The notes under the pieces are model-generated. The model ran no database searches. It saw only the letters and a program-made list of their open reading frames with translations, and was not told the DNA's origin. From positions 1,364,001 to 1,428,000 of the forward strand of contig JACZZP010000013.1 of the NCBI GenBank assembly GCA_015183035.1: 64,000 bases of DNA, in the 5' to 3' direction. How positions within the stretch are numbered: position 1 is the first letter of the stretch; every line of letters begins with the position of its first letter. A program made the translations under genes and the position numbers. The DNA is from Meloidogyne chitwoodi (Eukaryota; Nematoda; Chromadorea; Rhabditida; Meloidogynidae). This document shows positions 23,330-28,515 of the stretch, piece by piece.

Positions 23330-24563
23330 TTATCGTTTTGTTCGTTTTTTCATTCGTACATTTTTGCAACCTTTTCGTTTTATTTTTCTTGGAATTCTTT
23401 CATTTTTACAAAAAGATGATACTTTTGCTGCTCCGAATTTGTTGCTTTTGCGATTTATTGAAGATTTTTCTTAAAATTTTATAAAATTATTTTTGAAAAT
23501 CGTTTAAATTTGAAAATTACAAAATATTTTAGAAATCACCAGTAAAGTTATAATTTTAAATTTCAAAAATTAAAAAACCTCTTTTATCCTCATTCTCATC
23601 TTCAGTAGAGACCTTGTATCGACCAAACTTTAATAATTCTCCCAATTCATCAACCACGGATGTATTATGTCTTCGCCTTTTTGCTGCCTTACGTTCTTCT
23701 CTTGACATTCCAAGACGCACAAAATTTGTTTCTTCGTAATGTTGTCTTGCTTGTGCCTGATGGGAGTCCAGGCCACCTGCAAATAAAATTTTTCAATTTC
23801 ATTTCGAGAGGGACAAAGTCCAAAACAATGAAATTACCTTTCAGAATAAAACTTTAAATAAAACTAGAACTAGAGGCGGTGTGGGATCCACAGAATATGC
23901 CTCAACGAGATGAATATGAGAAAAAAATAAACATGTTTTGGAAATTCTAAGTTTAAGATTTTACTCGTTTTGAAATTTCTAAATTAATACCTAATGCAGG
24001 ATATTCTTCACGTATTTCCTCTGGCCGATCCTCTAATTCATCACGGAGTTCACGAACTAATTGGCTGTTCTGTGCCCGACGCTTTTCTTTGTTCAAACGG
24101 CGTTCTGAACGCTCTTTCGTAGCCTGTTCACTTTCAAGTGTTCGAGGTAAATTCTTGCTGCTAGCAGCGATTGCTGCCAATGCATTTCTACGTTGCTTAC
24201 CTGCATCACCAATGTCTTCTAAAATTTACAATTAAAAAAATAGTATTTGATTCTTAATGAGATAATAAATATCCAGACAGAAATGATAAAATTCTAAATT
24301 TATCTCGTATCATTTTATAAATTATTTTAACCTTCATCGTCAGTAGAATCCGAATGTTGTTCAATTTTGTCTTCTCCATTTTCCATCAATTCATTATTGA
24401 GTTCTTTTTCATCTACTTTTGGATAATTTGCAGTAAAACTTTGATAAGCTTGCAAAGCAATTCCTTTCAACTCATTAAGCAATTCTTGCCCATTTTTGAA
24501 ATGAATGAAAATCTTTTCGTGACATCTTTGAACATTTTTTAATTTATTCTCATCTTTCTTCAT
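23330..24563 (-). CDS. NGDN: Neuroguidin (NGDN/LCP5-type ribosome-biogenesis factor), short N-terminus
   Basis: The conserved C-terminal half of neuroguidin is clear: SERRLNKEKRRAQNSQLVRE, LRDELEDRPEEIREEYP, then RQHYEETNFVRLGMSREER with KAAKRRRHN. A very basic end (RKIKRKGCKNVRMKKRTKR) is reached through an intron at about 23470-23582. Family members act in the U3 small-subunit processome for 18S rRNA maturation and also bind eIF4E/CPEB. The first Met is at 24563, just after a TTTCAG acceptor at about 24601. The stop of MPP10 lies only 170 bp upstream of this Met on the same strand, so co-transcription with trans-splicing is likely. The usual N-terminal Sas10/Utp3 domain is missing or highly diverged, as there is no room for it upstream. 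Confidence 0.8.
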
Positions 24564-24732
24564 TTCGTTGAACCGGTCAATTTTTGTAGTTGATAGAAGC
24601 TGAAATGTGGAAAAGAAAATGTTTGTAAAGAAGAACCCGCGAAACAGTAGTGGTATGCGAAAAAAGTGACATCTTGTAAATTAAAGAAAGGTGATTTATT
24701 TCATTTATATGAGATAGAAATAAGCAATTAAA

Positions 24733-26283
24733 TTAATTTCTTTGTCGTTTCTTTTTCTTTCGACGCTCACGCTTCTTGTCAGTTATTGTTCGTTCCGTAT
24801 TTGATTTTGGTGATGCTTTGGTTCTTCGTACTATTTCTTCTGGTGCTAACAAATTAACGTCAGGTTCTGTAATCACAGTTGGACCAACTTCCTTAAATTA
24901 AAGAATTTATAATTTGTAATATGCCCATGATTGATCAAAACAAATAAAACATAAAAATTCCAAATTTTATGTTTATTTTTAGAATTTTAATATTAGAAAA
25001 TCAAACCTCTAAACAAAGGCTTGGCATATTATTAACAATTTTTGTATCATCTGTTTGAATTTTTTGTGGTCGAAATTGAAAATGGCTTAAAGCGTCCAAT
25101 TTAAGAAATAGAGCATTCATATCCCTTTGTATTGCATCAGTTTGCGGATCTAATTGAGAAATAATCTAAAAAATTATTTTATGTTCAAAAATATTAAAAA
25201 CCTTTTCTTGTTGATCATTTTGAGAATTAACAAATTTATCAGCATAAACCTCAGCAAGAGATCTTCGAATATTTTGTTCAATTTCTGTTTGATTTCGAAA
25301 AATTGTAGGTATCAAAGCTGCCTCATTTTCACGAAATTTTCGGAATCTGGTTAAGTATAGGTGGTTTTTTTGTAGCGGTTCAATTTACACAAGTGAGGTG
25401 TTATTCGAAAGAGCTCGGCGAGCTGAGTCGAACTAGCCCTGAACGAAGTCGAACCAACTACTCTGAGCCGAGATACAGACCCCCGAAAATCGAAAAACCA
25501 TAGGGGGGAGTAAGCTCAGTTTTGGGGTGGAAAAGTCGAATATGAGTATGATAGCTCATTCGATAGGTCTCTTTGAGACCTATCGAATGAGACCAAAATT
25601 GTCGAGATTGAACGATTTTGAACAAAGTTATGAAAGATCGAAGTTTGCTGGAAACACGCCAAACTTGAACCTACAGAGAGTGTTTTATCACTTCTTCGTG
25701 TGAGAGCCCATCCCTGGTTGGCTTTTTGGTACATGCGTTATTCTACGGCGCAAATTACAACAAAATAATTCAGTGAAAATAATTTAGTAGCAGCCGCGGT
25801 AATCACTAATAAGAGCTTACTCCCCCCTATGGTTTTTCAATTTTCGGGGGTCTGTATCTCGGCTCAGAGTAGTTGGTTCGACTTCGTTCAGGGCTAGTTC
25901 GACTCAGCTCGCCGAGCTCTTTCGAATAACACCTCACTTGTGTAAATTGAACCGCTACAAAAAAACCACCTATACTTCACCAGATCCAATTTTCGAATAA
26001 CATCATCAAAAAACTTAAAAAATGTAATAAAAATTTCAAATACAAATTAATTTTAAAATCATATTTAAAATTTAACCTTTTCTCTGCAACGTTTTTTAAT
26101 TATTAGTTCCAGATGTTGAGTAATTTCTTCATTAATGGTTGGGGGAGCATTAAATTGATAATCAGCACAAATGGAATGTTCCAATATTTCATCGGTTTTA
26201 CGTTCAACAGCCGAAACTTCACCTTGTAAGACCCAATTACGTGGTTTAAGATTTTCTTTCTCGTATAATTTAATTTTATCCAT
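24733..26283 (-). CDS. MPHOSPH10: MPP10 (U3 snoRNP protein), interrupted by a DNA transposon
   Basis: Conserved MPP10 blocks in order: NWVLQGEVSAVERK, NAPPTINEEITQHLELIIKK, DDVIRK, RRSLAEVYADKF, MNALFLKLDALSHFQFRP, IVNNMPSLCLE, LLAPEEIVRRTK and the basic end TDKKRERRKKKKRQRN. MPP10 bridges Imp3/Imp4 to the U3 snoRNP in the nucleolus. The visible protein starts where the human protein is already several hundred residues in: the acidic N-terminal half is not found before the divergent gene at 26712, and the human C-terminal extension is also absent. Between DDVIRK and FRENEA a 645-bp inverted-repeat element sits in the exon (25343-25987). Removing it with one 8-bp duplicate restores an uninterrupted frame. 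With the element present, expression depends on splicing it out, or the gene is broken. Confidence 0.8.
25335..25995. mobile_element. MITE-like DNA transposon with 175-bp TIRs and 8-bp target duplication, inside the MPP10 exon
   Basis: The element spans 25343-25987 (645 bp). It is flanked by a perfect 8-bp direct repeat AATTTTCG (25335-25342 and 25988-25995). Left TIR 25343-25517 and right TIR 25813-25987 are reverse complements with three mismatches that I count, so the copy is probably young. Ends read G(A/G)ATCTGGT(T/G)AAGTATAGG. An 8-bp duplication is typical of the hAT or Merlin-type superfamilies; the TIR sequence alone does not decide between them. There is no transposase frame. On the gene (minus) strand the upstream end contains TATAG|GTGG and the downstream end AACCAG|A, which could serve as splice sites. 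Confidence 0.9.
25555..25591. repeat. Perfect 17-bp hairpin with 3-nt loop inside the MPP10 transposon
   Basis: CTCATTCGATAGGTCTC, loop TTT, then the exact complement GAGACCTATCGAATGAG. It lies in the interior of the element, separate from the TIRs. Confidence 0.9.
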
Positions 26284-26711
26284 CTTAAATTTAGAAATTT
26301 AATGCATAGGTAAATTTATTTTAAAAATTTTTTTGATTACCTGTTTTGGAGTTTTTTATAAAGGGAACACGAAAAATGGAAACAGACGTTTCAGTCCTAC
26401 ACAGTGCGGAGCTATTTGATCTCGGCCGTTTCACTTCTGCAAATAGGGTTTCCTTCTAACTGAGATTTCGACAATTTAGTAAATTCGATGTGAACTATCT
26501 CGTTTCAAATTACTTATAGCCAAGTATAAAGGACAGTACCTCAGTTTTTTGTTTCAACATACCGGTTATCATTCCGTATATCATTTTTATCAAGCTTAAG
26601 TCCGAACATTGTCAAAAACGATATTTTTAAGTCTCTAGAGTTTATTTTATTGTCGAATTTGCTTAAATGTCGAATTTACAGACCACCCTGTTTTCCATAG
26701 ATTCAAATAAA
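26284..26711. promoter_or_regulatory. Divergent promoter region, MPP10 / cyclophilin-RRM
   Basis: 428 bp between divergently transcribed starts. The part around 26380-26460 is less AT-rich than usual. On the minus strand an acceptor-like TAAATTTAAG directly precedes the MPP10 ATG. An ACAG|GTAATC donor-like site lies further upstream (about 26342), so a 5' exon or SL addition is possible. No specific factor site is claimed. Confidence 0.5.
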
Positions 26712-28515
26712 ATGGCTGTGCTAATAGAAACGACACTTGGCGAATTTGTTATTGATTTATTTATCAAAGAAAGGCCTAATGCTAGTAAAAATTTCCTCAA
26801 GCTTTGTAAAACAAAATACTACAATCTTTGTCAATTCTTTACTATCGAGCCAAATTATATTGCGCAAACTGGTGATCCAACAAATACTGGGAAAGGTGGA
26901 GAATCAATTTTTGGGTTTGCTTTTTTTAGATCTTTTAATTTTTGTTTATAACATTTTTCGTTCCATGACAAATCTTTAACTACATAAATTATAAAATTAT
27001 AAGCAATTTTACTTACCTATTTTAGTATATTTTAGTACTTTGTTTGGTGAACAGGCAACTTATTTTGAAATGGAATTAGTGCCAAAACTGCGACATACAC
27101 GTAAAGGAATTGTTTCAATGGTTAATAATGGAGAAGGACTTATTGGATCTCAATTTTTTATTACACTTGCTGATGAATTGGATTTTTTGGATGGAAAACA
27201 TTGCATTTTTGGGCAAGTTGCTGAAGGCCTGGAAACGTTAACAAAACTTAACGAAGAACTTGTTAATGAAACAAATAGGCCTTATCGAGATATTCGGTGA
27301 GTAAATTGCTTTAAAATTTTTTATTAATTAAAAATAATCAAATTAATTTATTTTAATTTTAATTTGTGATTTAACAGAATTGCACACACTATTATTTTGG
27401 ATGACCCATTTGAAGATCCACCTCGTTTAAAAATACCAAGACGCTCGCCTTCGCCTACAATCGATCTTATAAAGGTTTTTTAAACTTATAAAATTAATAC
27501 TAATAAAATAAGTTGTGAGGTTTGGTTTTTTTTTAATTTTTCCTTTGAAGTTGGACAATCAAATTGCCCTTGATGAACGTGTCGATGAAGATGAAGGTAA
27601 AACAGCAGAAGACTTGAAATTGGAACTTGAACAAAAAGAAATGAAAGGACATGCTCAAATTCTTGAAATGGTTGGCGATTTACATTATGCAGAAGAACGT
27701 CCTCCAGACAATGTTCTTTTTATATGTAAATTAAATCCAGCAACAAGTGATGAGGTTTTTTTTAATTTTTTTAATAAAAAGAAATATATTAATTTAAGGA
27801 TTTAGAAATTATTTTCTCCCGTTTTGGCAATATTCTTAGTTGTGAGGTTATTCGTGATAGACGAACTAAAGCTTCTCTTCAATATGCATTTATTGAATTT
27901 GAAACACCAGAACAATGCGAAAAGGCTTTTATGAAAATGGATAATGTTTTAATCGATGATAGAAGAATTCATGTTGATTTTAGTCAGTCAGTTGCTAAAA
28001 ACTACCAATGGGATAGAAAAGGTATTAATAATTATTTTCTTTAAATTTAATGAGAATAATCTTTCATATATAAACCTTTTAAAAAAGTGTTTATTCTAGT
28101 CAGGAAAGAGAGATTATATTAAAATTATTTTTTTATTTGACTAATTCTCTCTATTCCTTAAATAGGTAGTAAATCTAATGAACAAAAAGATTCTCATAAT
28201 TCTTCAAAAGATATATCATCACGTTACTCAGATCACCAACAACATTCTAAAGATCGGCATCAAAATGAGAAAAAAGATAAAAAGAGAAGAGAGAAAGAAA
28301 AGGAAGAGGAAAGAAGTGAAAGACGAAAAATAAGTAAAAGAAACAATAATAATGAAAGAGAAGTAATTTCTAAACATTCAAAAAGTGATTATCGTCATCG
28401 ACATTATTATAATGAAGAAGTACGTCAATCATCAAGATATGCTAGAAGCAGAAGTCATGAACGAAAAAGATATAGAGAAATGGATAATGATAAAAGAGAA
28501 CATCGTAGACGTTAA
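26712..28515 (+). CDS. sig-7: Cyclophilin with RRM (PPIL4; SIG-7/CYN-14 orthologue)
   Basis: Starts [17 protein letters not shown] exactly as PPIL4 proteins do, so the ATG at 26712 is preferred over the upstream one at 26667. The cyclophilin domain covers [15 protein letters not shown] and GIVSMVNNG...GSQFFIT...[11 protein letters not shown]. It is followed by the linker [14 protein letters not shown] and [11 protein letters not shown], then an RRM ([56 protein letters not shown]). A long Lys/Arg/Ser-rich tail ends in HRRR. Nuclear cyclophilins of this type act with RNA polymerase II and in pre-mRNA processing; SIG-7 supports transcription elongation in C. elegans. Catalytic residues look partly diverged, as in PPIL4 generally. 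Confidence 0.95.

Follow-up and report, generated by a model that had tools for sequence, protein, structure and literature searches.

Does a transposon lying in MPP10-derived coding sequence of the nematode Meloidogyne chitwoodi act as a new intron, removed from the pre-mRNA through splice sites carried in its own ends? A preliminary description of the stretch of DNA analysed here (64,000 nucleotides of contig C5, hereafter the window) had answered that it may, and had regarded the element as a member of an intron-generating family. As an introner, the element would exemplify the making of introns by transposons in nematodes. The nematode host, which had been proposed from the sequence, agreed with our searches, in which the closest proteins were from Meloidogyne.

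A young 645-bp element with an 8-bp target duplication

The element lies on the minus strand and is richer in GC than the window as a whole (43% and 25%, respectively). By re-reading the sequence, the length of 645 bp, the 175-bp terminal inverted repeats (TIRs) with three mismatches and the perfect 8-bp duplication described earlier were found to be exact to the base, and the parts are arranged as follows.

25343..25987, minus strand: 645-bp element classed as non-autonomous Merlin-type (MITE) from its ends, TIRs, target-site duplication, family copies and ends shared with a 2.14-kb relative
25335..25342, no strand: target-site duplicate AATTTTCG, one side (sequence)
25988..25995, no strand: target-site duplicate AATTTTCG, other side (sequence)
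25343..25517, no strand: TIR of 175 bp, starting GAATCTGGTTAAG (sequence)
25813..25987, no strand: TIR of 175 bp, with the outer end GGATCTGGTGAAG on the minus strand (sequence)

The outer 175 bp of both ends match each other except at positions 2, 10 and 149. When the flanks were joined with one duplicate omitted, FFDDVIRKFRENEAALIPTIFRNQ was obtained on the minus strand, in which the frame closes as DDVIRK-FRENEA, so that the in-frame closure noted before could be reproduced. Read unspliced, the MPP10 frame runs into a stop codon within the element. Both the element and the insertion event can be accepted as genuine and as young.

At 25789-25803 the element contains AGCAGCCGCGGTAAT, which is present in the 2.14-kb relative too. 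This string would correspond to the 530 loop of small-subunit ribosomal RNA, a core that is nearly universal, and to the 3′ part of primer 515F. Rfam gave 0 matches up to E 1 across 24500-27000, and the possibility of an RNA gene inside or adjoining the element was rejected.

The family in the genome and its assignment to Merlin

The outer-end pattern, with up to three mismatches allowed, matched 35 places in the genome and, when reversed as a control, 0 places, and an 8-bp duplication flanks all 16 complete copies identified by exact ends, of which 15 are short (604–753 bp) and one is 2140 bp long. The family is therefore not a product of chance, and the element could be upheld as a young cut-and-paste DNA transposon with a true 8-bp target duplication. 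No common sequence was noticed among the target duplications of these 16 exact-end copies. An 8-bp duplication is also present at the short copy L002, whose end is slightly off the pattern; with L002 and the window copy included, there are 16 short copies, which are 96.6–100% identical to the window copy. The whole-genome family search, in which 40 of 725 candidate places were scored, gave 172 matches, a count in which degraded copies are under-represented. Older relatives (L016, L029 and L030) have 8-bp duplications as well, and no duplication was found at the ends tested of five other relatives (L005, L018, L020, L025 and L067). A 536-bp relative, scoring 84% to the window element, occurs at nine places (L035, L036, L037 and six others) with identical scores, as if borne within a larger repeat.

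The 2140-bp copy (C7:393388-395527) has the same ends as the window element and an 8-bp duplication of its own, and encodes transposase pieces on its minus strand. One of its open reading pieces matched PF12762 DDE_Tnp_IS1595 (7.8e-13), a domain with 16 matches genome-wide (25 of 25 candidates scored). As features of Merlin, the passages of PMC8101967 on this superfamily give TIRs of 24–462 bp, a terminal GG, 8–9-bp duplications and a DDE_Tnp_IS1595 domain. In the window element we found a duplication of 8 bp, TIRs of 175 bp and, as a partner, the 2140-bp relative with its candidate transposase piece matching this domain, whereas the terminal 5′-GG occurs at one end only, the other end being GA in all 16 short copies. 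By these features, and by the ends that it shares with the relative with the DDE_Tnp_IS1595 match, the window element is a non-autonomous Merlin element. The passage of PMC11118728 on this point counts Merlin as one of the superfamilies that are widespread in the nematodes studied.

The interrupted MPP10 is a truncated second copy

A genome-wide search with the Pfam Mpp10 profile (10 of 10 candidates scored) gave two loci, one in the window and the other at C9:1370825-1371948. The C9 gene encodes 379 aa from start to stop, is colinear with the MPP10 entries of M. hapla, M. enterolobii, M. floridensis and M. incognita, and reads as uninterrupted GATGATGTTATTCGAAAATTTCGTGAAAATGAG at the insertion site, i.e. 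as the empty site. We infer its function for a protein that is shorter than the five longest orthologues (379 aa against 418–429 aa) and that lacks both an acidic region close to its N terminus and the final residues. None of the Meloidogyne MPP10 entries compared has extra residues at the insertion site. The M. incognita entry is without an internal stretch, and the M. enterolobii entry P0005 has, a few positions before the site and at an exon boundary, 12 extra residues that look like a retained intron.

In contrast to the start-to-stop gene at C9, the copy in the window is an internal fragment, with the following parts.

26077..26283, minus strand: exon equivalent to C9 exon E3 (Pfam PF04006, 1.8e-15)
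25996..26013, minus strand: 5′ part of exon E4 (FFDDVI), upstream of the element and duplicate (sequence)
25202..25342, minus strand: 3′ part of E4, downstream of the element, with one duplicate included (joined E4 compared with C9, see below)
25007..25165, minus strand: exon E5 (PF04006, 1.2e-11)
24733..24891, minus strand: exon E6, ending RQRN-stop where C9 goes on into its last exon (comparison with C9)
24742..26335, minus strand: whole homology to the C9 MPP10 locus, the element aside, stopping at both ends (blastn and tblastn)

In blastn and tblastn searches, C9 exons E3–E6 matched the window at 1e-24 or better, and the C9 exon pieces N1, N2 and E7 had no credible match there (best E 0.056); the window copy consists of four internal exons, with the first exons and the last exon missing. 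Its homology to C9 ends at 26335, on the far side of the intron before E3, and at 24742, the end of E6. Apart from the element, all four exons have open frames and plausible splice sites. Regarding the earlier claim of an insertion into an MPP10 exon, the sequence is indeed MPP10-derived and coding, but the exon is part of a second, truncated gene copy.

Protein change is faster in the window copy than in the C9 copy. Among alignment columns that do not vary between four orthologue entries (M. hapla, M. floridensis and two of M. enterolobii), 19 were changed in C5 only and 3 in C9 only, with 21 changed in both and 162 in neither. The pairwise comparison of the two copies gave dN/dS = 0.28 and dS = 0.26; this ratio, together with the open exons and plausible splice sites, argues against complete decay and indicates that the fragment experienced some constraint during part of its history. 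On the basis of these comparisons, we read the window MPP10 as a duplicate that would have lost its ends and then its constraint.

E4 (25202-25342 plus 25996-26013, compared with L073:3832-4031 on C9) differs from C9 at 3 of 159 nt, and the intron after it (within 25166-25342) at 1 of 36 aligned nt, as opposed to dS values of 0.22–0.42 in the other exons. This low divergence is suggestive of gene conversion across the site where the element later inserted. The neighbouring segment 24106-24569 is also found at C9, where it is inverted with respect to MPP10, indicating a rearrangement in one of the two places. The minus-strand frames at 23556-24680, partly duplicated at C9 with this same inversion, gave no Pfam match and may resemble neuroguidin. 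On the plus strand, frames at 26667-28044, beginning about 330 bases past the end of the MPP10 fragment, contain cyclophilin and RRM domains (PF00160 and PF00076), and we assume them to be PPIL4-like.

The search for a second gene copy altered the picture of this insertion. The premise that the window MPP10 is a working gene was rejected once the second Mpp10 locus proved to extend from a start to a stop codon and to be empty at the insertion site. The strongest argument for a new intron, the survival of an essential gene, fails with it, and the claim is therefore not supported.

Other copies near coding sequence

Junction frames were listed for all 16 short copies and, in addition to MPP10, pieces from 12 of them were compared with Pfam, by which genes outside Pfam would be missed. 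Three copies touch coding-derived sequence (MPP10, HSP70 and PAZ) and one lies just upstream of CPEB; among the other 12, nine had junction frames lacking a Pfam match at E 0.1 and three had frames of 28 aa or shorter. No copy was found within a coding exon of an intact gene, as far as Pfam-recognisable genes among the 16 are concerned. The idea of an intron-generating family, for which the fraction of copies in exons had been proposed as a measure, gained no clear support from this survey of 16 copies, in which the three that touch coding-derived sequence are all in partial-looking genes.

At L013 (C10:417540-418269), the insertion falls within an HSP70 frame, between positions 336 and 338 of the profile. 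The pieces tested from this gene gave no match to positions 1–29 or past 410 of 599, and the match of the last HSP70 piece (383–410) was below Pfam's cut-off. Between C10:418551 and C10:430204, the genome-wide search (73 of 100 candidates scored) found no further HSP70 match. In this HSP70-like gene (L013:23-2687), a start without similarity to HSP70 takes the place of profile positions 1–29 and a different sequence follows position 410, so the gene looks chimeric. At L003 (C25:530763-531407), the element directly adjoins a frame matching PAZ positions 52–102 of 123. This match is on the downstream side only, with the insertion at its edge, and the bases upstream of the insertion are at most candidate coding sequence; an F-box-like piece lies upstream, the PAZ piece is closed by a stop, and one further frame tested downstream had no domain. 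Judged from these frames, both the HSP70 and the PAZ host genes look partial. Both belong to large families in this genome, as seen from 46 exon-level matches for PAZ and 88 for HSP70 (73 of 100 candidates scored in the HSP70 search).

On contig C30, a 731-bp copy (L008:1501-2253) precedes the CPEB start codon by 13 nt and is thus outside the coding exon. Its interpretation as a coding-exon insertion was rejected on the grounds that the M. hapla orthologue starts MFCDNEVFSRK, by which the insertion falls 13 nt upstream of the matching start. The CPEB gene is apparently intact and is 99% identical in its C-terminal part to an M. hapla protein, and the copy before it is a candidate for a change in expression.

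Splice sites in the ends of the element

The proposed splice uses a GT at 25969-25968 and an AG at 25348-25347. These positions, the removal of 623 nt and the in-frame remnant of 30 nt (22 + 8) encoding LDLVKYRFRK could all be reproduced from the sequence. Sites were scored with a matrix of 18 introns collected from the C9 and C5 MPP10, CPEB and HSP70 copies, with leave-one-out scoring for the controls; three of these introns come from the window fragment itself, and exon joins were set by visual inspection so that the expected protein was recovered.

25968..25969, minus strand: candidate donor TAG/GTGGTT of the proposed splice (score 2.0; 4 of 18 collected donors lower)
25347..25348, minus strand: candidate acceptor ATACTTAACCAG/A of the proposed splice (score −1.1; lowest of 18 collected 1.4)
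25974..25975, minus strand: alternative in-frame donor GAA/GTATAG (score 4.2; leaves 24 nt)

Compared with host sites in this matrix of 18 introns only, the acceptor falls below the minimum and the donor is in range. The donor put forward earlier is thus a plausible one by score, but it is not the best open in-frame donor, which is GAA/GTATAG at 25975. The strongest donor in the element end, GTG/GTTTTT, leaves a stop. The weak acceptor is common to the MPP10 and HSP70 copies, whereas that of the PAZ copy, which has the opposite orientation, scores 2.6. Together with the start-to-stop C9 gene, its empty site, and the truncation and faster change of the interrupted copy, the weak acceptor speaks against the element acting as a new intron.

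We shuffled the outer 40 bases and looked in the MPP10 frame for a pair roughly equal or superior to the proposed one, which appeared in 304 of 2000 trials when the ends were shuffled apart and in 281 of 2000 when the inverted repeats were kept, a chance of about 15%. Some open in-frame GT-AG pair was present in 983 and 992 of 2000, respectively. The proposed splice would leave an open frame in each of the three copies that touch coding-derived sequence. By a hand count, the frame is open in three of six possible combinations of orientation and phase, so that this outcome has a chance near 1 in 8 and is not rare.

Occasional cryptic splicing near the ends, without dedicated design, would make the element a mutation that is masked in part, as distinct from a member of a family that generates introns. 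Cryptic splicing near element ends has been reported for Tc1 in C. elegans exons, and the shuffles indicate that chance often yields open GT/AG pairs close to the ends; given an acceptor as weak as the one found here, we regard such splicing as possible but unlikely. The introner-like explanation, by which the ends carry splice sites, the element is removed from the pre-mRNA as a newborn intron and the family generates introns, appears considerably more doubtful. It can draw on the end GT and AG, which leave a remnant divisible by three at any copy length as both sites lie in the ends, on the frames that would stay open in three of three coding-touching copies, on the better acceptor of the PAZ copy, and on Aureococcus, whose introners, according to passages of PMC9860276, bring both splice sites with them and keep the frame by adding 12 bp (the 8-bp duplication and 4 bp from the introner itself), showing that such a design exists elsewhere. 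It is weakened by the partial or chimeric appearance of the MPP10, HSP70 and PAZ host genes, by the position of the CPEB copy before the start codon of an apparently intact gene, by an MPP10/HSP70 acceptor lower than all 18 collected, by shuffled ends doing as well in about 15% of trials, and by the collected introns themselves, which are 36–162 nt long with 10–23% GC as against 645 bp and 43% GC for the element. Just as improbable to us is a modified form of it, in which the ends of Merlin MITEs would serve as weak splice sites and exonic insertions, leaving an in-frame remnant of 24 or 30 nt, would persist as proto-introns, first in dispensable copies under relaxed selection.

The string 'nematod' is absent from the main text of the 2022 introner survey (PMC9860276). 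Among the papers that our searches on Merlin with introners and on introners in nematodes listed, we found no report of this case; the passages of PMC9169325, one of those on introners in nematodes, do not name Meloidogyne.

A recent insertion into a spare gene copy

We consider it very probable from the sequence comparisons that the window holds a Merlin insertion in a truncated spare MPP10, which would have been tolerated through redundancy with the C9 gene and not through splicing. Against this reading stand the four exons, intact but for the element, the shortness of the C9 protein, and the open in-frame product that the proposed splice would give in all three coding-touching copies. A transposase like that of the Merlin relative, of the DDE_Tnp_IS1595 kind as judged from the shared ends, presumably moved the element in trans by cut-and-paste into exon 4 of the second MPP10, leaving the 8-bp duplication. 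Truncation of this copy would have preceded the recent insertion, and at that time the fragment probably had no needed function. Tolerance by redundancy is supported by the start-to-stop MPP10 with the empty site on C9, on which no splicing of the element would be needed; we infer that RNA processing does not excise the insertion efficiently, and its splicing is unproven. A Merlin element has thus inserted recently at a locus whose paralogue still shows the empty site, and the case carries a caution, namely that a frame closing perfectly around a transposon is not equivalent to a living gene or to a spliced element.

Compared with known systems, the window exons are like MPP10, the U3 snoRNP protein, in matching PF04006 and the Meloidogyne entries, and are unlike it in forming an internal fragment only. 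The element resembles the Merlin superfamily, the eukaryotic relatives of IS1016/IS1595, in its 8-bp duplications, TIR length, GG at one terminus and DDE_Tnp_IS1595-bearing relative, and departs from it in the GA at the other terminus and in the lack of a transposase in the window copy. A Mutator-type identity, such as Tm1 of root-knot nematodes, was ruled out as next to impossible, since Tm1, a Mutator/Foldback family which according to passages of PMC3169594 is likewise a TIR element of Meloidogyne with long inverted repeats and short non-coding, MITE-like copies, has duplications of 8–10 bp that are mostly 9 bp (8 bp in 16 of 16 exact-end copies here), terminal motifs CGGTTAA and CCTACCC that differ from the ends of the window element, and a MULE-like transposase in place of DDE_Tnp_IS1595. 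The introners of Gozashti et al. (2022), as described in passages of PMC9860276, differ from the window element, whose splicing is at most a prediction, whose acceptor is weak and whose coding-touching copies are in partial-looking genes. With these introners it shares the non-autonomous TIR structure, the 8-bp duplication and candidate GT/AG sites in the ends, and, if it were spliced, it would resemble those of Aureococcus in adding a length that is a multiple of three.
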